Below are positions 15,945-64,000 of a stretch of 64,000 nt of DNA, piece after piece. Within the stretch, counting starts at the first letter, position 1. Each line of letters opens with the position of its first letter. Location of the stretch: the IMG/VR virus record IMGVR_UViG_3300043397_000067, positions 16,015 through 80,014 of that record; one strand, written 5' to 3'. Source of the stretch: a virus. A program made the translations under genes and the position numbers. Under the pieces are notes generated by a model, which was given only the letters and a program-made list of their open reading frames with translations, ran no database searches and had not been told where the DNA came from.

Positions 15945-16232
15945 TTAAGTGCCAACTGACTTGTCGCAGTGGTCTTTATCGAATACGTCTAGCAGTTTGC
16001 ATAGCACGCATCCCCACTTTTTATTTTCTCTCTTAGCTCTACCTGCCCTTGAGGATACTGTTTCGTCCTCACTACCGTTGCTAGCTGCATTAAATAGCTG
16101 GTCGAAACTAATTGCTATCTTCCAACTCTTGTCTGGCGCTACCAGTACTGTGTACAGATAGCGAACAAAAGCTATTACTGCTGCAAGGGCGAGCAGTGGA
16201 AGAAAACAAATCAGTATCAACCTAGCTTTCAT
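15945..16232 (-). CDS. Membrane-anchored cysteine-rich small protein
   Basis: A 95-aa protein with an N-terminal hydrophobic segment (residues 4-31) and a conserved-looking soluble tail DETVSSRAGRA followed by WGCVLCKLLDVFDKDHC. I recall this tail from many phages, where it sits next to lysis genes, but no function is known to me. The two CxxC/HC elements could bind metal. It is coupled to the upstream gene by an ATGA overlap. Confidence 0.7.
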   Translation of the reverse strand: MKARLILICFLPLLALAAVIAFVRYLYTVLVAPDKSWKIAISFDQLFNAASNGSEDETVSSRAGRAKRENKKWGCVLCKLLDVFDKDHCDKSVGT

Positions 16233-34487: not shown

Positions 34488-36131
34488 GTGAACAAGTTTG
34501 AGGAATTCGTAGCAAAGGCTGGCCCAGTCCATGAGGGTAAGTACACATACTTATCTATAGGTACTGGAAAACGTAGAAAGATAGTTTATCAGTGTTCTAC
34601 TCACGGAGTCAAGGAGCAGGACGCTACAGCACACCTAAGAGGTGCTGGATGTGTGGACTGTTCCTATGAGCTTAGAGCCGCTAATAAAAAACTAACGCTA
34701 GAGCAGGCTATTAAAAGGATAGGGTCAAAACATAATAATAAGTACAGTTACTTAAGAATTGGCACTAACTCAGCCAATAAGTCCACTGTAGTGTATGTAT
34801 GTAATAAACATGGAGAGCAAGAGCAGTCCCTAAATGACCACGCTAACGGACACTCATGCTGTGGCTACGATACTTTAAAAGTAAGTAACTCTGATAGGTA
34901 TGAGGACTACTTAGCTAAAGCTATTAAAATCCATGGCAATAAATACACGTATAAACCGTCTGATATAGAAGGTTACTTTTTAATCACATGCCCTACACAT
35001 GGAGAGTTTCATAAGAGATTTACAAGCCATGTACACTCCGAAGAAGGGTGTAAGAATTGTGCTTATGAAGCCTTCGGTAAGTCCATAAGGTACGACTTTG
35101 AAGACTACTGCAGTAGAGCATCTACAGCTCATAATAATAGATATACATATACTGAACTTATATACGGTAAAGGTCGTACACTTATAAGAGCTGTATGTAG
35201 AGAACACGGAGAATTCATACAGAATGCTAAAGACCACTTATCTAAGCTGACTAACTGCCCTAAGTGCAGTAATAGCGGTGTGTCTGCACCTTCTATAGAG
35301 TTATCTGAATACTTAAGCCAGTTCGGTTTAGTAGAGAGTGAATATAGAGTAGAGGGTTGCAGGTTAAGATGGGATATAAAATATAGTAATACTTTAATAG
35401 AGTACGACGGCCTATACTGGCATTCGTCACAGCATAAGAGTAACGCGTACCATAGCGAAAAAAGACGCTTAGCAGAGTCGTCAGGATTTAGTCAAATAAA
35501 TATATTTAGTGATGAGTGGACTAATAAGAAAGCTTTAGTAAAGCGGCTGTTGCTTAATAGGCTTGGATTATCAACAGAGTCTACAGTCTATGCTAGAAAT
35601 ACTGTAGTATGTATTGTAGATTCAAAAAAAGCTAGTGAGTTCCTAGACTTATACCATATACAGGGCTATAAAAAATCTAGTCACTATGTTGGATTAGTAT
35701 ATAGTGGAGAAGTAATAGCTATAATAGGCTATGAAATGCGTGAGTCTGGCAGAGGTAAAACAACGTCTAGCAGCCACATGGAAATTACCCGGTACACAAC
35801 AAGCTGTTCTGTACCGGGTGGGTTCAGTAAATTACTTAGCTTCCTTATAAAGAATAGCCCCGACTTAGTTGAGGTATATACATTCTCAGATAAAAGGCTA
35901 TTTTCTGGTACGTTATACGAACGCTGTGGGTTCAAAAAAGTAGCCACTGTAAGACCTAGCTACTTCTACACTGATGGGGTTAGTAGGTATGACAAGTCTT
36001 CATACCAAAAAAGTAAGTTAGCTACTATGACCAACAAAGTTGGCACTGAGGAAGAAATGGCTGCTTCTCTTGGGCTATACAGGGTTTATGACTGCGGTAA
36101 AGTGAAGTGGTCTAAGCGAATCAGCAAATAA
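34488..36131 (+). CDS. Free-standing homing endonuclease, Vsr-like, with zinc-finger repeats and GNAT-like tail
   Basis: A 547-aa mobile endonuclease gene on the strand opposite to the structural operon. Residues ~4-260 hold four copies of a ~60-residue zinc module (..F..A...H..KY.Y....C..HG....H..GC..C). Residues ~265-355 form a Vsr/EDxHD-like nuclease (IELSEYL, LRWDIKYSNTLIEYDGLYWHS, FSDEW). Residues ~375-510 resemble an acetyltransferase-like domain often fused to such nucleases (VPGGFSKLLSFLI, YTFSDKRLFSGTLYERCGFKKV). The gene is clearly more AT-rich than its neighbours, a sign of transfer. It would cut alleles lacking it and so spread during co-infection. Confidence 0.85.
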   Translation: MNKFEEFVAKAGPVHEGKYTYLSIGTGKRRKIVYQCSTHGVKEQDATAHLRGAGCVDCSYELRAANKKLTLEQAIKRIGSKHNNKYSYLRIGTNSANKSTVVYVCNKHGEQEQSLNDHANGHSCCGYDTLKVSNSDRYEDYLAKAIKIHGNKYTYKPSDIEGYFLITCPTHGEFHKRFTSHVHSEEGCKNCAYEAFGKSIRYDFEDYCSRASTAHNNRYTYTELIYGKGRTLIRAVCREHGEFIQNAKDHLSKLTNCPKCSNSGVSAPSIELSEYLSQFGLVESEYRVEGCRLRWDIKYSNTLIEYDGLYWHSSQHKSNAYHSEKRRLAESSGFSQINIFSDEWTNKKALVKRLLLNRLGLSTESTVYARNTVVCIVDSKKASEFLDLYHIQGYKKSSHYVGLVYSGEVIAIIGYEMRESGRGKTTSSSHMEITRYTTSCSVPGGFSKLLSFLIKNSPDLVEVYTFSDKRLFSGTLYERCGFKKVATVRPSYFYTDGVSRYDKSSYQKSKLATMTNKVGTEEEMAASLGLYRVYDCGKVKWSKRISK

Positions 36132-46119: not shown

Positions 46120-47808
46120 TTACGAGTATTCCTTGGGCCTAAACGCTACCAAAAGTGGAGTTCTCCCCGGTTCCGTCCACCCACTTACAGTGCCTAGCAG
46201 GGTAGTAGCAAGGAACATGTACATCAGTGAGAAGAAGTAGTGATCTTGCCCATCAGTCTTCTGCCAACTGAAAACAAGTTCATCATTTTGGAATATCTTA
46301 GTGCGCTTCAAGCTCAAGTAGTGCTCTTGCAGCACACCATCATCTGCTCCCTTTGAGATAAATATCTTATTTTCCTTGAATATCTCAAGCAGCTTATCAA
46401 ATGCAGCAGTACGGTTAATCTTTAGCAAGCGCAAGTTGAGCTTACCCTCTTCTGCATCCTCGTCTTTATCAGCCACAGTGTACATCTGCGGATTCTTGGA
46501 TGTTGTAAACACTGCACCATAAGCATTAGTATCTACTTCGCAGACTGACATAATCTCAGAAACATAAGGTTGTACGTCATGAACTGAGATAACTACCCGG
46601 TATTGGCGTATAAGCTCAAGGCGTCTTTCCCTGAACTTTGATAGTGGCACCATCTCTCTATGCACTACAAGCAACAAGCCTTCGTTAGACAGCCTGCCGA
46701 TAGTCACAGCGCACAGTAAGCCCATGTCAAAGCCCATGAAATGTATAGCACTGCTAGACAAATCCGCTTGTACAAGTGCCTTGCTTATATCCGCTGCCGT
46801 CAACTGCTCATTAGTATCTTCGCTTGTCTCACCTAATACCTGATTTTGCCACTCTGCTCTTGTATTGAACTCCGTACTTGTTCGTACCAAATACGCTGGC
46901 ACAAGCAAGCGGCAAGCAGTGACCGGTGTAACGTAGTGCGTATGTGCTTCATAGTTATCATCTGGGTTTTCTACTACCCACTCAAGTTTTGTAGGGTCAA
47001 GTTGTGGGTCGCGCCTGCAAGCAGGGCACATCCAGTGGGCTTTTTGCCACTGATAGTCCTTGATGTTGTATTTCGTTAACCCTTTAAGGTCATCATAGTA
47101 GCCCGGAATCACAATATCTGTATGGTAACTTGGCAACCACTTATGGCCACAGCAGTTGCATATACCCATGTGGCGTATGCGCTTTGAAGTCTCTGCTTCC
47201 TTAGAAATTCCCACACCTTCTTGTGTAGGAGTACTAAACTGCCTGATAATCTGGTGCTTAGAGGCTTGCAAGCGGCTTCTGAACTGCTTCAAGGTGTCCG
47301 GGTCACATCGGTCTATCTCGTCGGCTACAAGGCAGTCTGCGCTGATAGACAAGGCTGCAGTTTCTGATCTAGTTCCGCGAATAAACAAGAAATTGCCGTT
47401 GATTTCCTTTAACTCTGTAGAGTCTACATTGACGTTTAGCAAGCGCTTAAGGTCAGGACTACCGTAAAGTATGGGATTTACTTTGGTAATTGTCAGTTTT
47501 GTTGCATCATTGGTCGATGGCAAGGCATAAATAACGTTAAACTGTTTTTGTGTAGCAAGGGCAGATAGAAAGTAGCAGATTGTGCTGACAGTCAAGCCGA
47601 TTTGTGCTGGTTTGACTGTGTTCGTTACGCGTGAATCGTCATTAAGAATGGCTCGCTGGAACTCATAACCACCCGTAAAAGACAGCTTTTTGCTCTCTAA
47701 AATGATGTGTTTTTCTGCATAACTTGCTAAATTGTGCAGGTGAAATACGTTATTTAGGCCGTCTTCTATGCGTTTATAGTGGTCATTTAGCACTTCCTGC
47801 CCTTTCAA
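46120..47808 (-). CDS. terL: Terminase large subunit (GpA-like)
   Basis: A 562-aa packaging motor. The ATPase has a Walker A-like NTVKPAQIGLT (Lys66-Thr73) and Walker B CLVADEID (Asp163-Asp166). A zinc site CNCC (217-220)/CPAC (261-264) lies between ATPase and nuclease as in lambda GpA relatives. The nuclease starts with FMGFDMGLL (Asp361). It cuts concatemers and pumps DNA into proheads. It overlaps the upstream small gene by 26 bases. GpA-type enzymes usually make defined ends, but the end type cannot be told here. Confidence 0.93.
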   Translation of the reverse strand: MKGQEVLNDHYKRIEDGLNNVFHLHNLASYAEKHIILESKKLSFTGGYEFQRAILNDDSRVTNTVKPAQIGLTVSTICYFLSALATQKQFNVIYALPSTNDATKLTITKVNPILYGSPDLKRLLNVNVDSTELKEINGNFLFIRGTRSETAALSISADCLVADEIDRCDPDTLKQFRSRLQASKHQIIRQFSTPTQEGVGISKEAETSKRIRHMGICNCCGHKWLPSYHTDIVIPGYYDDLKGLTKYNIKDYQWQKAHWMCPACRRDPQLDPTKLEWVVENPDDNYEAHTHYVTPVTACRLLVPAYLVRTSTEFNTRAEWQNQVLGETSEDTNEQLTAADISKALVQADLSSSAIHFMGFDMGLLCAVTIGRLSNEGLLLVVHREMVPLSKFRERRLELIRQYRVVISVHDVQPYVSEIMSVCEVDTNAYGAVFTTSKNPQMYTVADKDEDAEEGKLNLRLLKINRTAAFDKLLEIFKENKIFISKGADDGVLQEHYLSLKRTKIFQNDELVFSWQKTDGQDHYFFSLMYMFLATTLLGTVSGWTEPGRTPLLVAFRPKEYS

Positions 47809-48607: not shown

Positions 48608-48664
48608 CTGTCCACAACTTATCCACAATGTGTATACGTCCAGCTGTGGATAACTTGTGGATAT
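48608..48664. promoter_or_regulatory. DnaA-box cluster beside AT-rich DNA
   Basis: TTATCCACA (48619-48627) and TGTGGATAA (48645-48653) are perfect DnaA boxes on opposite strands. TGTGGATAT (48656-48664) and CTGTCCACA (48608-48616) differ by about one base from the consensus TTWTNCACA. Four sites in 57 bp next to an AT-rich stretch resembles a DnaA-dependent origin or a DnaA-controlled promoter. Confidence 0.65.
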
Positions 48665-48669
48665 CATAT

Positions 48670-48773
48670 TAGGGTAAACCCCTATTCCCTAAACGCCGAT
48701 TCTATGTTAGTCGCGCGCCTAGGTGTTAACCCCTAGCACACAATCTGCACCTTGTATATAGGGGTTTGCCCTA
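48670..48773. repeat. Three related operator-like dyads
   Basis: TAGGGTAAACCCCTA (48670-48684), TAGGTGTTAACCCCTA (48720-48735) and TAGGGGTTTGCCCTA (48759-48773). The third read on the other strand is TAGGGCAAACCCCTA, one base different from the first. Spacing is about 50 and 39 bp. They look like binding sites for a dimeric protein. Confidence 0.65.
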
Positions 48774-48866
48774 TGGTGTCCGGACTGTAGTCGTGAGAAT
48801 ATATGGGTGTCGGTTGATCGTAACCGGTGGCCCTAGGGCCGTGATCATTAACAAATCAGACGGTTA

Positions 48867-48908
48867 AGCACTCCCCGCGCGGCCCCCGCGCTGGGTGTGG
48901 GGAGTGCT
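48867..48908 (+). promoter_or_regulatory. GC-rich inverted repeat in early leader
   Basis: AGCACTCCCC (48867-48876) and GGGGAGTGCT (48899-48908) are exact inverse complements around a 22-base GC-rich loop. It lies 44 bases before the first early gene and could be a leader hairpin or a binding site. Confidence 0.55.
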
Positions 48909-48951
48909 CAAAATTCACCCAGCGCGGGAAACCTTTATAGGAAACCCCACC

Positions 48952-49485
48952 ATGCAAACCACAAAATCTATCGCCCTATCTTTTCTCTCTGCAAAACAGC
49001 TGCAAGCGGCCGCAAACTTGGCGGAAATGTCCAGCACTGAACTGACCCTCACGGCCACGGCGGGCCGTGGCGCGGCCCGTAAAGTAGCGGCCCAAATTGT
49101 CGCCGACAATTCATTAGGCGAAGTGCTCGCCCAGTATGAAGCATCCAAATGTTCACGCCCCGAACCGCTGGCCCGGTATGTCCGGGCCTACGTGGGTCAG
49201 TATGAAAGCACGGATAAGCTGCAGGTTTGCCCGTTCAACCGGGCTGGCTTTGAAGCTTACCCACATGCGCTGCAAAGCTGGGCGCTGTCCAGCGAAAACG
49301 AAAAAACGCAGTCGGCCCGGTTGAAAGTGGCCGCGCATGTTGAAAGCGTCGTAAAGCTTGCCGCGCAAGCCTATGACAACATGAAAGCGCAGGAAGCTGC
49401 AGCGCAGGAAGCTGCAGCGCAGGAAGCTGCAGCGCAGGAAGCTGCAGCGCAGGAAGCTGCAGCGCAGGAAGCTGCAACAGCTTGA
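48952..49485 (+). CDS. Early Ala-rich protein with (AQEAA)n tail
   Basis: A 177-aa protein starting at ATG 48952 (TAGGAAA upstream). It is the first early gene right of the control region and is more GC-rich than its neighbours. Residues 1-145 are mostly helical with some Cys (LQVCPFNRAGFEAYPHALQSW). The tail is six exact copies of AQEAA, a stable single helix. No family recognised. The high GC and the repeat suggest recent gain or active change. It is followed directly by a strong terminator. Confidence 0.75.
   Translation: MQTTKSIALSFLSAKQLQAAANLAEMSSTELTLTATAGRGAARKVAAQIVADNSLGEVLAQYEASKCSRPEPLARYVRAYVGQYESTDKLQVCPFNRAGFEAYPHALQSWALSSENEKTQSARLKVAAHVESVVKLAAQAYDNMKAQEAAAQEAAAQEAAAQEAAAQEAAAQEAATA
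49387..49476 (+). repeat. Six perfect 15-bp tandem repeats
   Basis: The unit GCGCAGGAAGCTGCA occurs six times in a row without change. Each copy adds five residues (AQEAA) without breaking the frame. Identity of all copies implies recent expansion by slippage. Confidence 0.95.
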
Positions 49486-49491
49486 AACCCG

Positions 49492-49515
49492 CCGGGCCGC
49501 TATCGGCCCGGTTTT
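49492..49515 (+). terminator. Rho-independent terminator
   Basis: Perfect 8-bp stem CCGGGCCG/CGGCCCGG with loop CTAT followed by TTTT, seven bases after the stop of the early gene at 48952. Confidence 0.9.
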
Positions 49516-49546
49516 CATAGCGGCCCACAGTGGGCCGCTATGAAAA
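49512..49546. terminator. Second long hairpin, possible back-to-back terminator
   Basis: A perfect 16-bp inverted repeat with loop CAG, arms beginning TTTTCATAGCGG and ending in AAAA. It shares its T-run with the terminator just upstream and would also stop transcription coming from the right. Confidence 0.75.
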
Positions 49547-49658
49547 CCGATCTTTAAAAATTCAATGCAAGCTGAAAACCCGCCTTTAGTGGCAGGGATA
49601 AGCACGTCCGGGCCTTAGGTGGTCGCCGGGCGGAAAAGTACACTACGGGAAACCCTAC

Positions 49659-49717
49659 GGGCCGCACCTTAACCGGGCCGCTAGTGACTAACCGGGCCGC
49701 ACCTTAACCGGGCCGCT
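49659..49717 (+). repeat. 24-bp exact direct repeat, period 35
   Basis: The same 24 bases, beginning GGGCCGCACCTTAACC, occupy 49659-49682 and 49694-49717. Each copy itself contains GGGCCGC twice, so the element appears four times. Iteron-like sites or duplicated binding sites are possible. Confidence 0.85.
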
Positions 49718-49772
49718 CAAATTGTCACACGTAGGGCATACTGGTACAGAATACCGCATTGATGCACACACC

Positions 49773-49836
49773 GACAACAAACCCTTACGGGGTTGCGCTG
49801 CCGCATGCCTTAAGCGCATGCCTTGCGGCTGTTGTC
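49773..49836 (+). ncRNA. Candidate three-way-junction RNA element
   Basis: Outer stem GACAACA (49773-49779)/TGTTGTC (49830-49836) encloses a small hairpin AACCC/GGGTT (49780-49794) and a second stem CCGCA (49801-49805)/TGCGG (49824-49828) with an inner GCATGC/GCATGC pair. All three helices are exact. Structure only; no known family recognised. Confidence 0.4.
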
Positions 49837-50372
49837 ACAATCCCTTATAGTTGAGTGAACCAAAAGACAATGACATAGAATTTTCTACATCTGAGAATGT
49901 AGGGTTAGCGGGCTAGATTAGCGGCGCGACACGGTGAAAATACGGACTTTCATTTTACAATGTCATATACTGTTGACGCATAGCTGTGAAGCTATACCCC
50001 ATAAATCAGAATAACGGATTAGGGCCTATTTGCGGCCCTAGGCGCGTTGCGTTATAGCCACGCCGTCGAAAAAGTTGTCTAGTAGCTCCTGAGAGTAGGT
50101 GCGTCTGGCTTTGCGTCATTGCGGGCTGGGCTTTCGGTATGTATAGACTCCCTCCCACGTTGTAGACCTTTGCGGAATGCCTCCGCTATAGGTGGGCGTG
50201 GTTACAGTTTATATTGCAGATAGGGTAGGGATGCGAAGCGGACTTAGCAAATACGGCATAGTGACAGTGTGCCTCATGTTGCGGGAACTCATTAAGTCAA
50301 AATCCCGTTCTAGTGGTCGGATAGAGTAGACCAACGCTTATCAGTCTTGCGGAATAGACTTAACCTTAACCC

Positions 50373-50428
50373 TTAACGCCTTTGCGGAGGGTCTCCGATA
50401 CACGGACGGCCCTCCAGCTCGGCGTTAA
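50373..50428 (+). ncRNA. Candidate long nested hairpin
   Basis: Three exact stems lie inside one another: TTAACGCC/GGCGTTAA (outer), GGAGGG/CCCTCC (middle, 50386-50391 and 50410-50415) and TCCG/CGGA (tip, loop ATACA). TTGCGG sits in the bulge between the outer and middle stems. Likely to fold as RNA. Confidence 0.5.
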
Positions 50429-50535
50429 CGCCCCACGTTGGCGCAAAATTACGATCAAGCGTGAAAAACGCTGCAACCTTCTAGGCCTTCAATGGCTTTG
50501 CGGTATGTCTGCCCTTTGCGGTAGAGCAAACCATC

Positions 50536-50566
50536 ATGCCCACTCTTGTAGTGGGCATTTTAGTTT
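50536..50566 (+). terminator. Rho-independent terminator
   Basis: Perfect 9-bp stem ATGCCCACT/AGTGGGCAT with loop CTTGT, followed by a T-rich tail. It closes the structured non-coding locus, which implies that the locus is transcribed on the plus strand. Confidence 0.88.
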
Positions 50567-50624
50567 GTGGGTCTTGCCCTGATACTAAAGGGATTACGGC
50601 TATTTGCCGACTTACGGATTTATC

Positions 50625-50828
50625 ATGTCAGTATCAAGTATCGCTCATTCCATCGCAGCCGTCTGGAATGGGTCAGCACTCCAGACAGAGTGCTTTTATA
50701 CCGGTATTCGGGCAGATATTGCCCATTCCTTGCGGATTGCCCCTAACAGGGCGGACTTCAATGCAGCTTTCGATCTGCTTTCGTGGTATCAGTCCGGTGA
50801 CGGACTGCTTTACTGCACCCTAGATTAA
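50625..50828 (+). CDS. Small early protein
   Basis: A 67-aa protein starting MSVSSIAHSIAAVWNG. The ATG at 50625 has only a weak CGGA site upstream; an ATG seven codons earlier is possible. The composition (Ala, Trp, Tyr, Asp balanced) looks like a real globular protein, unlike the other two frames. No family recognised. It leads the first group of tiny early genes. Confidence 0.55.
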   Translation: MSVSSIAHSIAAVWNGSALQTECFYTGIRADIAHSLRIAPNRADFNAAFDLLSWYQSGDGLLYCTLD

Positions 50829-50874
50829 CAGGGTCTTGCACGTTCCCTTTAATGTGCTATTGATAGGAGTTGCC

Positions 50875-51087
50875 ATGTTGCAACAAAGATTGGACCGGAT
50901 TAACACCCGGATTGTGGAAATCACTCCGGCCTTGTCTAAGGCTTGGGAAGACATGGTAGCCGCTAAGGCTGACCGTGACCCAACGCACCCGCTGTACAAG
51001 GCGTGGAAGGCTATCGACCTCAAGGACAGCCAGCTGCGTGAAACGCGCTCTGATCTTGAGTTCGAGCTTGAGTGCTTGGAAGACTGA
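50875..51087 (+). CDS. Small early helical protein
   Basis: A 70-aa helical protein (MLQQRLDRINTRIVEITPALSKAWEDMVAAK). The start at 50875 is supported by ATAGGAG. The last codons (..ECLED) and the following 25-bp block are repeated exactly at the end of the next gene. Function unknown. Confidence 0.75.
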   Translation: MLQQRLDRINTRIVEITPALSKAWEDMVAAKADRDPTHPLYKAWKAIDLKDSQLRETRSDLEFELECLED

Positions 51088-51395
51088 CAGGGCCAGTTAC
51101 ATAGCAGCGCGCTGCTATGTTGCGGGTATTGTTGCCCTAACTTGAAAGGAAGTGTTATGAAACACCAAGACATTATCAAGGCTGTCAAGGCACAGCACTT
51201 GCTTGAGTGTGCCAAGCTCAACATGCTCGACTATAACAAGTTGAGTCTTATCATTGCTATTGCTTGCAATATTGCGGCAGATGTGACGCAACTGCGTCAG
51301 CTTTCGTTGTTCTTGCAGTGCTTGGAAGACTGACAGGGCCAGTAATAGGGCATATGCCCTATTGCGGGGATTGTCCCTAACTTGAGAGGAATATC
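51073..51395 (+). repeat. Duplicated intergenic cassette with differing palindromes
   Basis: A 25-bp identical block (51073-51097 and 51319-51343) covers the last codons and stop of two consecutive genes. Each copy is followed by a perfect palindrome (22 bp at 51099-51120; 20 bp at 51344-51363), then by TTGCGG, a small GGG..CCC hairpin, CCTAACTTGA and a ribosome site. The palindromes have different sequences but the same layout. Confidence 0.85.
51157..51333 (+). CDS. Small early protein
   Basis: A 58-aa helical protein starting MKHQDIIKAVKAQHLL with GAAAGGAAG upstream. Its end shares the LED-stop with the preceding gene through the duplicated cassette. The rest of the protein is not similar to that gene. 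Function unknown. Confidence 0.75.
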   Translation: MKHQDIIKAVKAQHLLECAKLNMLDYNKLSLIIAIACNIAADVTQLRQLSLFLQCLED

Positions 51396-51542
51396 ATGAG
51401 AATTCTTATGTCTGTTATCGGAGTCGTAGCCATTCCTATGGCTTCGCTTGGGTCTTTGTTCAGCGTTATGACGCTGGCTGAGTGCGGTCTGCTGCTGACC
51501 ATCGCAGTCTTTTGCTGCTGTTTCGGAACGATTGGAGACTGA
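51396..51542 (+). CDS. 48-aa membrane peptide
   Basis: A small protein opening MRILMSVIGVVAIPMA with two hydrophobic segments and a Cys cluster (AVFCCCFG) near the end. GAGAGGAA precedes the ATG in the second copy of the cassette, and the stop is four bases before the next ATG. It probably inserts in the inner membrane. Possible roles include superinfection exclusion or host takeover; none is proven. Confidence 0.65.
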   Translation: MRILMSVIGVVAIPMASLGSLFSVMTLAECGLLLTIAVFCCCFGTIGD

Positions 51543-51545
51543 GCC

Positions 51546-51830
51546 ATGAAACCATTTGAAATACGTGCCAAGCTCAAGGAAATGGGCTTCAAGGAAGACC
51601 GCTACGGCAACATGCTTACCCCCAAAGGTAAGTACCGCATACACTTCAACTCTATCTCTTTGCGGGTAGAGAAGAAGCGCCAATGGGTAGACCATTTCAC
51701 GCAGAAAACCCAATCCGACTGGCAAAACCTGCGTACCGTCTACTACACCAACACTGTCATCCAAGACGGTGTGCTGCGTCTGGGCACTCTCGAACTCAAG
51801 GATTATGCTGCTACTGCTGTGGCTGCTTAG
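51546..51830 (+). CDS. Early hypothetical protein
   Basis: A 94-aa basic protein (MKPFEIRAKLKEMGFKEDRYGN.. RIHFNSISLRVEKKRQW). An alternating helix-strand pattern is seen but no family. It is tightly coupled to the membrane peptide upstream (TGAGCCATG). Confidence 0.8.
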   Translation: MKPFEIRAKLKEMGFKEDRYGNMLTPKGKYRIHFNSISLRVEKKRQWVDHFTQKTQSDWQNLRTVYYTNTVIQDGVLRLGTLELKDYAATAVAA

Positions 51831-52226
51831 CCTAGACACAACGCATACATTGCGTCCTGTATGGAAGGTGCTTACTACACCCACCTTCCATAACATACAT
51901 CAGCACAGATTTTCGGTGTCTGTTAGCTGAGAGAATACAACCAGAGTACAGGGCTTGCCGGTTTACGCGACGGCAAGCCCGCTTTCGTTTGGGTCCTCAG
52001 GGTCTCAAACGAAAACTAACCAGTTCGTACATTTTGCCGCGCACGTAAGATCGTCAGCACACTGATTATCCAAATTTGCGGATTCTGCACGGCCTTAAGC
52101 AAGTTCCGTGCCAGCAAAGTTTCGCGCAAAAATTTCTAATTTGCAGATTTTTGCAAATCTAGCCCTTCCCGTGCATACTTTTGCATATTTGTTACAATTT
52201 TCCCTAACCATAATGGTGGTATTTTT
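51831..52226 (+). other. Intergenic region with hairpins and terminator
   Basis: No gene seen. It contains the small hairpin ACGCA/TGCGT, an inverted repeat ATGGAAGGTG../CACCTTCCAT, the terminator described separately, an inverted repeat TTTCGTTTG/CAAACGAAA (51983-52014), GCACGG/CCGTGC with TTGCGG just upstream (52076), and AT-rich DNA before the next gene that may hold a promoter. Confidence 0.6.
51951..51990 (+). terminator. Probable Rho-independent terminator
   Basis: A perfect 10-bp stem GGGCTTGCCG/CGGCAAGCCC with a 10-base loop, then GCTTTCGTTT. The T-run is interrupted, so efficiency may be moderate. Confidence 0.65.
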
Positions 52227-52412
52227 ATGTCCTTCGATAACGAAGACCGTGCATTAGCAAGGTCTTTAGCTCAGGCTGCTGGTACTAACAAGTCAAGAGC
52301 CGCTAACGCTAAAAGACGCACAATCAAGAAAGCAGCCCAACGTATAGGCTTTCTGCCCAAGCAGCCCAATATGCGTACACTGCAACGCATCTTCTTTCAC
52401 TTTGCGGAGTAA
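52227..52412 (+). CDS. Small basic early protein
   Basis: A 61-aa strongly basic protein (SRAANAKRRTIKKAAQRIG) likely to bind nucleic acid. GGTGG precedes the start. The stop is two bases before the next ATG. TTGCGG occurs in its last codons. Confidence 0.7.
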   Translation: MSFDNEDRALARSLAQAAGTNKSRAANAKRRTIKKAAQRIGFLPKQPNMRTLQRIFFHFAE

Positions 52413-52414
52413 CC

Positions 52415-52603
52415 ATGCGCCTCATTCGCACCCTCTCAAACGATAAAGCCGAAGTCAAAATCTACAAAGACGACGGCGAATTCGTATGCAAGTTGACTGG
52501 TAACCCTGCTGCCGGCTACTTCACTGATGACTGGCAAGATGCAGAGGGCACTGCCAAGCACATGCTGGCCGCACAGGAAATCAAGCTCTGTAAAGCGCAT
52601 TAA
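52415..52603 (+). CDS. Small early protein
   Basis: A 62-aa protein with the pattern MRLIRTLSNDKAEVKIYKDDGEFVCKL.. YFTDDWQDAEGTAKHML. I recall very similar small proteins in many phages without function. A short beta sheet plus a C-terminal helix is likely. Confidence 0.75.
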   Translation: MRLIRTLSNDKAEVKIYKDDGEFVCKLTGNPAAGYFTDDWQDAEGTAKHMLAAQEIKLCKAH

Positions 52604-52955
52604 ACTCTCTGGTATTTGCGGAAAGACTAGCGCCTACAAGTGCTAGCCAAAGGCACTCCCTCTACCTGTGCCTTACACAACCCACAAGCCAGAACAAACC
52701 GCCTACCAAGTGTTTTGCGGTCTTTCCCTCTTCCAGAAAAAGAACTAGAAGAGTAAATAATAAAAATAACAGAATAATTCTATATAATACCTTCTGAGAT
52801 TCTAGTTATTTTTACGGGCGGTCGTAGCAGCTTTTTTTTTGAGTCCAAAATTTTTTACATTTTGTACCCTCAAACCCGTCCCCGTAAATATATCCAGAAA
52901 TCCTGACTGTTCTATCCAGAGTTCAGAACTTTAATAGCTCCAAGTAGGAAATAAT
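52604..52955 (+). other. AT-rich intergenic region
   Basis: No gene seen in 352 bases. Two TTGCGG elements (52616, 52715) are followed by complementary arms GGAAAGAC and GTCTTTCC about 100 bases apart. An inverted repeat AACTAGAA (52743-52750)/TTCTAGTT (52800-52807) encloses an AT-rich loop with a perfect TATAAT (52783-52788). A run of ten T near 52830 follows. A promoter for the next gene is likely but no -35 element is clear. Confidence 0.55.
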
Positions 52956-53777
52956 ATGGAAAAAGCCCGCTTGTATAACCGACAAGTCGCTACGGTAGGT
53001 ACAATAGTTAAGAACTACCACATCCGGGAGAAGCTTCCACAGAAAGACATATCGGGGTGCAGAGTGCTGCGCCTTGAGTGTGAGTTCTGCAAGGCCCAGC
53101 TAAAATTGAGCTTGTACGAGCTTTTGCGGAGAAAGAGCATCTGCATATGCAGAAAGCAAGACGCCGAGCCAAAGGCAACCACGACCATAGTCCTTGCCCT
53201 GCCGCAAAGCCGCTTGCACTCTTTCAAGCTTGACTACAGGATAAGCCTTGAAAACCGCCTGCAACGTATGCTGCAAAAGACCACAACCCTGAAAGACATA
53301 GGCTACGAGAACATCACAGTCTATGAGATCGTGGGAGACTTGCTGAGAAAAATAGGCAACTTGAAGGACATACTTGAAGCGCCACCAATAAAAAAGCCGG
53401 GAAGGCCGAGAAAGAATCCCGTTCTTATATCCGAACCCGACACAGGCATCAAAGAACTTGAGGTTCAGCCACCACCGCTACCCCAAGAGCCAGAACCACC
53501 AAAAGAAGAACTATCTTGGCCGTCCTTCCTACTTGAAGACCCAGCGGACTATATCTGGTTCACGGCCCAAGCCCCACAAAACCGCTTCCCTCCAAAGTAC
53601 ATCACCGACTGGGTGGAAGAAGCAAACTACGACCCCAAGACCTCAAAGCTGTTTTCCGTAGCCACAGAAGAAGGCCTAAGGGTCCACTACAAGACCTTGC
53701 CAAGAGAAGAAGCGCCAGCAGTATCCTCAAGGATGCCCACTTGGAGCTTTGATGATGACGACGATACCCCATTTTAA
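52956..53777 (+). CDS. AT-hook protein with SSB-like acidic tip
   Basis: A 273-aa early protein. Residues ~40-70 contain CEFCKAQ and CIC, a possible zinc ribbon. Near residue 150 lies KKPGRPRKNP, an AT-hook that binds the minor groove of AT-rich DNA. A proline-rich linker follows. The protein ends WSFDDDDDTPF, very close to the C-terminal tip of bacterial SSB (DFDDDIPF), which recruits many replication and repair enzymes. It may bring host proteins to phage DNA or compete with host SSB. TAGGAAA precedes the start. Family unknown; the function is inferred from motifs. Confidence 0.75.
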   Translation: MEKARLYNRQVATVGTIVKNYHIREKLPQKDISGCRVLRLECEFCKAQLKLSLYELLRRKSICICRKQDAEPKATTTIVLALPQSRLHSFKLDYRISLENRLQRMLQKTTTLKDIGYENITVYEIVGDLLRKIGNLKDILEAPPIKKPGRPRKNPVLISEPDTGIKELEVQPPPLPQEPEPPKEELSWPSFLLEDPADYIWFTAQAPQNRFPPKYITDWVEEANYDPKTSKLFSVATEEGLRVHYKTLPREEAPAVSSRMPTWSFDDDDDTPF

Positions 53778-62789: not shown

Positions 62790-64000
62790 ATGTACGAGAA
62801 ACTCGGTGACAAAATCACCTCAGTTGAGGCGCTTGCAGAAGCGCTTCACATACAAAAGCACCAGATACCAGACCTTGTTCTGATGCCCCCTAGAAACGGG
62901 GTGATAAGTAGCTCACCGAAGAAGTGGTGGGCTTACCGTGAGCAAGTACGGCTGAACATGAATGTTTACTACCAAACATCTGTGCTTGAGTCGCTGAATA
63001 AGCAACTGGGTATATACGCTCACGTTTCCAAGGAAGACCCGGAAATGGTGGCCTATACGCCGGATAACCAAGCAGGTGAGCAAGACCGCCAGCTGCGTAC
63101 CACACTTGGCAAGCTCATTACCAAGTACTACCCATCCATCAAGGACGAGGCGGTAAACGACTTCGTATCGACTCATAAGTCAGAGCTGTCAGATGAAATC
63201 TTCTGGCTTGACGGTGACGATATTGCCAACATCGGCTACGGTCCTGATAGCGTAGGGTCCTGCATGTCAACCAGCTACAACAACCGTGAGAGCATTATGA
63301 GAGCTACTGGTGGGCTGGCACCAGCGCTGGTCTATTCGATGCCCAACATTCGGATGGCTGTTCTGTACGACAAAGACGGCAAGATTAATGCTCGGTCATT
63401 GGTACGGGAAGACAAGAAGCAGTACATCCGTGTTTACGGTGACGCACTGCTTACCAAGCGACTCGCACGTAACGGCTACAGCCTTGGGGACTGGCAGGGT
63501 ATTGAGTTGAAGGCCATCCCAACAGGCAGTGACTACCTTATGTCCTACCTTGACGGCATGAACGCAGCAGGAAACAGGGAAAACGCAAGTGTTGCCATGC
63601 TCGATGACAAGTTGGTCGTTCTTACAAGGGAACAGGTAGCTGCATACTACACAAGGTTTCATAGCAACCCTTCCACTGGGATTACAACGGCTGGTAAAGT
63701 CAAGCCGTCGGTGGTCAACTCAATCGACTTTATTGTTACCGACGGCCTCACTGGTCAGACGTATAACCTGCTGGCGGAGACAGTACAGTTTAGGAACTAC
63801 ACTGTAGTTCGTAATGATGTGATAGATAATGTCAGCACTGCGTCAGACATGACCATCTACCCCCTGTGCATGGCTTACGGAAGAACCGTCTACTGTATGG
63901 ACGGTAATGAACTTGTGGACTATGCAGGAAACAAGTACTACAACACGGAGAAAAACCTTGTACAGTACAGCTTGGTACGTCTCGATGCAGAGTTGTACCC
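62790..64000 (+). CDS. Large early protein of unknown function (paralogue 2, cut by window end)
   Basis: At least 403 residues, open to base 64000. ATG 62790 is chosen because GAAAGG lies 9 bases upstream; ATG 62781 is too close to it. It begins MYEKLGDKITSVEALAEAL and is similar to the preceding protein over its first ~250 residues, with all key motifs kept (IGYGPDSVGSCM, RSLVREDKKQYIRVYG). The gene pair arose by tandem duplication and has diverged strongly, which suggests that both copies are useful. Confidence 0.8.
   Translation, partial: MYEKLGDKITSVEALAEALHIQKHQIPDLVLMPPRNGVISSSPKKWWAYREQVRLNMNVYYQTSVLESLNKQLGIYAHVSKEDPEMVAYTPDNQAGEQDRQLRTTLGKLITKYYPSIKDEAVNDFVSTHKSELSDEIFWLDGDDIANIGYGPDSVGSCMSTSYNNRESIMRATGGLAPALVYSMPNIRMAVLYDKDGKINARSLVREDKKQYIRVYGDALLTKRLARNGYSLGDWQGIELKAIPTGSDYLMSYLDGMNAAGNRENASVAMLDDKLVVLTREQVAAYYTRFHSNPSTGITTAGKVKPSVVNSIDFIVTDGLTGQTYNLLAETVQFRNYTVVRNDVIDNVSTASDMTIYPLCMAYGRTVYCMDGNELVDYAGNKYYNTEKNLVQYSLVRLDAELY

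Follow-up and report, generated by a model that had tools for sequence, protein, structure and literature searches.

Sponge RNAs of the CsrB/RsmZ type are rich in hairpins and present a short GGA loop motif in many copies. Chi sites and the short repeats of T7 are short oriented words of DNA, those of T7 lying close to the terminal repeat, and the known Chi words are in addition asymmetric. The sequence at which the SPP1 pac site is cut, CTATTGCGG/C, contains the hexamer TTGCGG (PMC5615212). Large noncoding RNAs have been described in phages, among them GOLLD, ROOL, the ICP1 transcript of about 800 nucleotides (nt) and the long noncoding RNAs (lncRNAs) of phage K, whose role is unknown as far as the cited accounts describe them (PMC7567579, PMC9241854, PMC12286853); the ICP1 transcript (PMC7567579) and the phage K lncRNAs (PMC9241854) are, in the same accounts, precedents for large untranslated phage RNAs. 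Here we describe a stretch of 64,000 nt, hereafter the window, from a viral record of 80,014 bases (IMG/VR IMGVR_UViG_3300043397_000067, positions 16,015 to 80,014), in which TTGCGG is clustered in a single orientation within and beyond a putative large structured noncoding RNA.

49823-52720, plus strand: TTGCGG cluster of 18 copies, the next copy being at 53124 (counts and clustering statistics).

The copies start at 49823, 50030, 50119, 50170, 50279, 50347, 50382, 50498, 50516, 50730, 51120, 51272, 51362, 51660, 52076, 52402, 52616 and 52715, and then at 53124, giving 18 in 49823-52720 and 19 up to 53129; no copy was found on the minus strand between 49823 and 53129. An earlier note on this DNA had listed 17 of these positions, every one of them exact; 51272 had been overlooked and 53124 is an additional copy just beyond. 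About 1.2 copies are expected in 49486-53200 under a first-order model, and 400 dinucleotide shuffles, a count which that note had proposed, gave a mean of 1.23 and never exceeded 5. In the entire 80,014-base record the word occurs 38 times forward and 18 times in reverse, against 18 and 23 for the reversed word used as control, so that the excess is found on the forward strand only. When all hexamers were compared in their densest 3.3 kb, TTGCGG ranked first as the oriented hexamer with the strongest clustering in the record, 18 of its 38 copies being in the stretch starting at 49823 (p about 7e-18; the p-values come from a Poisson model on first-order composition, and the shuffles point the same way with an effect of like magnitude). 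The density of the word is hence unequal across the genome. In the window the clustered copies have one orientation, which is sense relative to transcription, and they are indifferent to reading frame, running on into small coding genes in differing frames.

The cluster belongs to an exchangeable pre-early module, found in a clade of uncultured tailed phages, in which the terminase genes are followed by a leader, the hypervariable gene 1, a stretch of about 1.1 kb poor in open reading frames (ORFs) with an intrinsic terminator, and small genes.

48952-49485, plus strand: gene 1, encoding a hypervariable helical protein of 177 amino acids with an Ala-rich tandem-repeat tail.
50498-50521, plus strand: pair of TTGCGG copies with starts 18 apart; the relatives L018, L045 and L047 retain a similar pair, with starts 19 apart.

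Relatives were obtained by TerL searches, and the contigs that reach the module are pieces of metagenomes, all drawn from a single viral collection. After gene 1, TTGCGG ranks first of the 4096 hexamers in four of them, with plus and minus counts of 13 and 1 (L018), 12 and 0 (L047), 20 and 1 (L045) and 7 and 1 (L005). Jointly these four hold 52 copies where 4.1 are expected, and the five phages including the window hold 71 against 5.3 expected, with 3 on the opposite strand. L012/L013 and L048 show no enrichment, and the contigs of L002, L006, L042, L044 and L046 stop too early in the module for the word to be judged. Alignment of 41 copies from the five phages gave no consensus beyond the six bases, hence it is the six bases themselves that are kept; a longer repeat duplicated around the word is thereby ruled out, the intergenic pair at 51120/51362 being the exception. 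When L018, L047 and L045 are aligned, few copies occupy common positions, among them the pair near the 3' end, and most are private to one phage. Because it recurs in five phages, the TTGCGG pattern is real and probably selected, and with this conservation in relatives the over-representation claimed by the earlier note is borne out. A general rule by which each phage would have its own word, suggested by GCCGCC in L002 and CAGACGC in L012, was dropped, since these are mostly gene 1 tandem repeats. No further relative appeared among genome contigs scanned for TerL, no similar DNA was found among GenBank phages, and a scan for AAGCGTGAAAAACGCTGYA returned only the relative L005 and one unrelated coding match.

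The stretch that separates gene 1 from the first small genes contains the following elements.

49486-50567, plus strand: putative large structured noncoding RNA with nine TTGCGG copies, no long ORF, a folding z of -6.2 and homology by covariance model R2 and by the hairpin R1.
50274-50373, plus strand: 3' module of the RNA, matched by covariance model R2.
50313-50334, plus strand: conserved hairpin with loop GGATAGAGTA and stem TGGTC/GACCA.
50536-50567, plus strand: intrinsic terminator, the probable 3' end of the RNA; L018, L045 and L047 have a terminator-like end in the corresponding position.

In L018, L047 and L045 an alignable noncoding sequence of about 1.1 kb occupies the same interval. 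The energy of the consensus fold was -519, against -434 (standard deviation 11.5) for column-shuffled alignments, and that of the antisense strand -503 against -441. Double changes numbered 56, with a mean of 45 and a maximum of 55 in the shuffled sets; since this count barely exceeds the shuffles, the energy is the better evidence. The hairpin with loop GGAUAGAGUA (variants GGAAAGAAUA and AGAAAGAAUG) is closed by a different stem in each of six phages, namely the window, L018, L045, L047, L048 and L012, the pairing being maintained. Its covariation score over the six phages was 0.978 against 0.24 when shuffled, none of 500 shuffles being as high; MAFFT alignments had misplaced the hairpin arms, and for the count the hairpins were lined up by eye on their loops. 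The earlier note had also proposed a covariance model and a search of related phages. Model R2, built from three phages with the window left out, recovered the window copy at 50274-50373 on the right strand with E = 0.0096 over 279 kb, the best match outside the training set; among the other relatives, L048 was matched weakly (E = 0.48), and L005 and L012 were not found. A search of Rfam 15 (GOLLD, ROOL, OLE and all other families) with the window region, L005, L012, L018, L045 and L047 gave only tRNAs and sub-threshold noise. A scan for the GGATAGAGTAG hairpin found two known relatives and two chance matches without structure. The ORF-poor stretch is thus best described, on comparative grounds, as a conserved structured RNA family absent from Rfam and comprising the window, L018, L045, L047, L048 and L012; the suggestion in the earlier note that the copies are part of such a family holds for the noncoding part, in which compensatory changes are found.

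The word and the fold are separable. Because L048 and L012, relatives in the RNA, are free of the word, it is not needed for the fold, and we regard TTGCGG as an addition to the RNA and not as its structural core. A homologous hairpin illustrates this relation: in L048 it reads ACGCC-tgctccct-GGCGT, without the word, and in L018 ACGCC-tgttcTTGC-GGCGT. Since most copies are private and this hairpin is word-free in L048 where L018 has TTGCGG, the word appears to have been gained repeatedly on a stable scaffold. Within the copies, GCGG is mostly paired and UU is more often open, a structural context that is suggestive but not significant.

The module lies where two divergent sets of genes meet.

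46120-47808, leftward: large terminase (phrog_675).
48671-48951, plus strand: leader/promoter region 5' of gene 1, about 80% identical to L002 over 48671-48804.

Structural genes, including the large terminase, portal and tape measure, run leftward from 48626 to 14092, and replication genes (primase, DNA polymerase A, thymidylate synthase and SbcCD-like genes) run rightward from 48952 round the record ends, the cluster being at the start of this rightward operon and adjoining the divergent terminase genes. Over 527 bases the two ends of the record match each other at 91% identity (window 63474-64000 against L001 1-527); therefore the 80-kb map probably closes into a circle whose junction varies between strains. 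The sisters L002 and L003 are about 94% identical to the window until 48604, about 80% over 48671-48804 and unalignable thereafter, and L004 behaves likewise; as far as gene 1 the identity between L005 and L006 is 92%, after which their sequences are unrelated. In the TerL tree the five TTGCGG phages require three changes; moreover, one and the same TerL is shared by L005 and L006, whose modules differ. For these two reasons the word is judged to travel with the module rather than with the terminase. Relatives in GenBank are remote, the window terminase being 26-29% identical to those of Caulobacter phage Seuss, Vibrio phage SHOU24 and Acinetobacter phage fJoAci01. In the interval from the terminase genes to gene 1, a pair of DnaA-box-like sequences (TTATCCACA / TGTGGATAA, 48611-48661) makes up a 17-bp inverted repeat, and L016 has similar boxes; as sign of an origin the pair was dropped, the sister L002 being without it. 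Within the leftward structural operon, 34488-36131 is a plus-strand gene of 547 amino acids with a weak DUF723 match.

The module carries further repeats and hairpins.

49495-49549, plus strand: twin hairpins right after the gene 1 stop codon, with a 20-nt perfect inverted repeat.
51080-51142, plus strand: intergenic leader unit, composed of the perfect hairpin CATAGCAGCGCGCTGCTATG, TTGCGGG, a second small hairpin and a ribosome-binding site.
51332-51396, plus strand: second copy of the leader unit, an inverted repeat with hairpin ATAGGGCATATGCCCTAT, the stem altered on both sides and TTGCGGG retained.

A gene of like size with a repeat tail is found at the gene 1 place in relatives. The window protein has no match in Pfam or PHROG, and its predicted structure is of low confidence with no fold match. 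Its in-frame tandem repeats (49390-49475), also present in L002, L005, L006, L042, L050 and L051, differ in sequence in nearly every phage and may be at either protein end. An adjacent hairpin pair of differing sequence follows gene 1 in L002, L005, L006, L012, L018, L045, L047 and L048. Just 5' of the cluster, GGGCCGC occurs six times on the plus strand in 49490-49720 (0.2 expected), and at the reverse-complemented end of L002 (1-460) a tandem array of CCTCTGGCCGTG stands where the window RNA begins. The two leader units of the window are duplicates of each other. Repeated leader units with a variable and a constant hairpin also precede small early genes in L018 and L045 (both reverse-complemented) and in L012/L040; they follow the design of the window with other sequences, being ACTGTA-hairpin-TGGCTTGCGATTTTGCAAG in L018 and AGGCC hairpin-AAAGGC...GCCCTACTTCAAAGGAG in L012.

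Taking into account that: (i) the word is sense-oriented relative to transcription, and (ii) it is tied to the RNA scaffold, we favour a reading at the level of the transcript, to which we would give somewhat less than an even chance: UUGCGG in an early transcript is read by a sequence-specific factor for which the RNA is a multi-site platform. In the model, the region would be transcribed early into the large noncoding RNA and early mRNAs, and UUGCGG would be a short site for a partner that might be an antisense RNA carrying the seed CCGCAA or an RNA-binding protein of phage or host origin. The noncoding RNA would offer a multi-copy platform or sponge, and through the copies in leaders and small genes the early mRNAs would be subject to this partner as well, which could stabilise, process or repress the transcript. 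A recognition element of an RNA-binding protein, as raised in the earlier note, is compatible with the sequence data. The anatomy of the module is much surer than the reader. The fuller description, a new large phage RNA family in which the early transcript bears a UUGCGG address of up to about 20 copies for an undescribed reader, spread over the RNA and neighbouring genes and travelling together with the pre-early module, not with the remainder of the phage, is possible but held with more reserve.

Several observations weigh against this proposal. The copies extend beyond the terminator into coding genes; the RNA relatives L012 and L048 lack enrichment; structure is concentrated at both ends of 49486-50567, the middle being unremarkable in 200-nt windows; and the accessibility of UUGCGG is not special (mean accessibility percentile 0.36). 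Moreover, 57% of the TTGCGG copies straddle the boundary from loop to stem against 43% of other NNNNGG words, which is not significant (p = 0.07), and a binding site in an accessible loop is supported by neither figure. The earlier note had placed most noncoding copies in or beside hairpins; most copies are indeed at hairpins, but the preference is not significant and the region is hairpin-rich throughout.

Indifference to frame and terminator, together with the strictness and orientation of a word without conserved flanks, would also suit a signal in double-stranded DNA, Chi-like or for replication, placed in a terminal repeat or in the DNA that enters first; the RNA would then be an independent feature of the module. 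In the Chi-like variant the word would turn the end-degrading nuclease of the host into a recombination loader. In Seuss and fJoAci01 the annotated long terminal repeats contain a gene resembling gene 1, yet these repeats have other words and no TTGCGG cluster, and in the window the word is limited to about 3.3 kb and rides on an RNA scaffold. We consider a DNA signal unlikely, though it is the main rival; should the word prove to be one, it would show how these phages protect or handle the DNA that enters first.

A functionless spread at a repeat-prone locus, in which slippage, template switching or recombination would multiply short words and small hairpins, is improbable. It would account for GGGCCGC at 49490-49720, the gene 1 tandem repeats, the GCCGCC and CCTCTGGCCGTG arrays in L002 and the perfect hairpins whose stems have changed fully. 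However, neutral spread predicts differing words and shared flanks, and is disfavoured because the hexamer is identical in five phages, on a single strand, with unshared flanks and with coding copies in different frames.

Very improbable is a role as packaging (pac) sites, to which the nearby terminase genes and the presence of TTGCGG in the SPP1 pac cut site would point; CTATTGCGG itself is found at 51357 in the window and also in L005 and L018. Against it, the word does not track TerL, the modules differing both between L005 and L006, identical in TerL, and between the window and L002; the copies are dispersed over 3.3 kb and mostly without CTA, and L048 and L012, with 60-62% TerL identity, have no cluster. 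A pac site of the SPP1 type, which would require CTATTGCGGC at the packaging start, read by the cognate terminase, was rejected for the same independence from TerL and the mostly missing CTA. Hardly credible is a promoter series with TTGCGG as -35 element, a form of the hairpin-bearing promoter element of the earlier note that fits the first three copies at most, where TATAG starts exactly 17 nt downstream (49846, 50053 and 50142), since the other 16 copies have no TATAG, sigma-70 promoters with a -10 element 16-18 nt downstream fit only 3 of the 19, the 41 sites of five phages have no downstream consensus and the region is no richer in promoter-like sites than chance predicts. The three TATAG sites may be promoters of separate small RNAs.

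Many phages have large structured RNAs, and a role is known for almost none of these. With a short, countable signal that differs among close relatives, the role of the RNA becomes testable by changing the words and keeping the stems. Returning to the transcript-level reading, the RNA of the window resembles the CsrB/RsmZ sponges in being hairpin-rich with many copies of a short motif. It differs from them in that the word is UUGCGG and not a GGA loop motif, and loops are not enriched; the preference for accessible hairpin loops expected of a CsrB-like sponge was not found. With the SPP1 pac cut site the locus shares TTGCGG and the vicinity of terminase genes, whereas its copies are many, dispersed, mostly without CTA and independent of TerL. 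Like Chi sites and the T7 short repeats, TTGCGG is short and oriented, but it is confined to about 3.3 kb and rides on a conserved RNA. The nearest likeness, as far as the cited accounts go, is to the GOLLD, ROOL, ICP1 and phage K RNAs, which are about 0.6-1.1 kb, ORF-free, phage-borne and either structured or abundantly transcribed, the window RNA being a putative transcript. In the accounts of the ICP1 transcript and the phage K lncRNAs (PMC7567579, PMC9241854) an oriented hexamer is not described. Compared with all of them as there portrayed, the window RNA stands apart in having no Rfam match, in its place within a pre-early module that adjoins the terminase genes and in carrying a multi-copy oriented hexamer.

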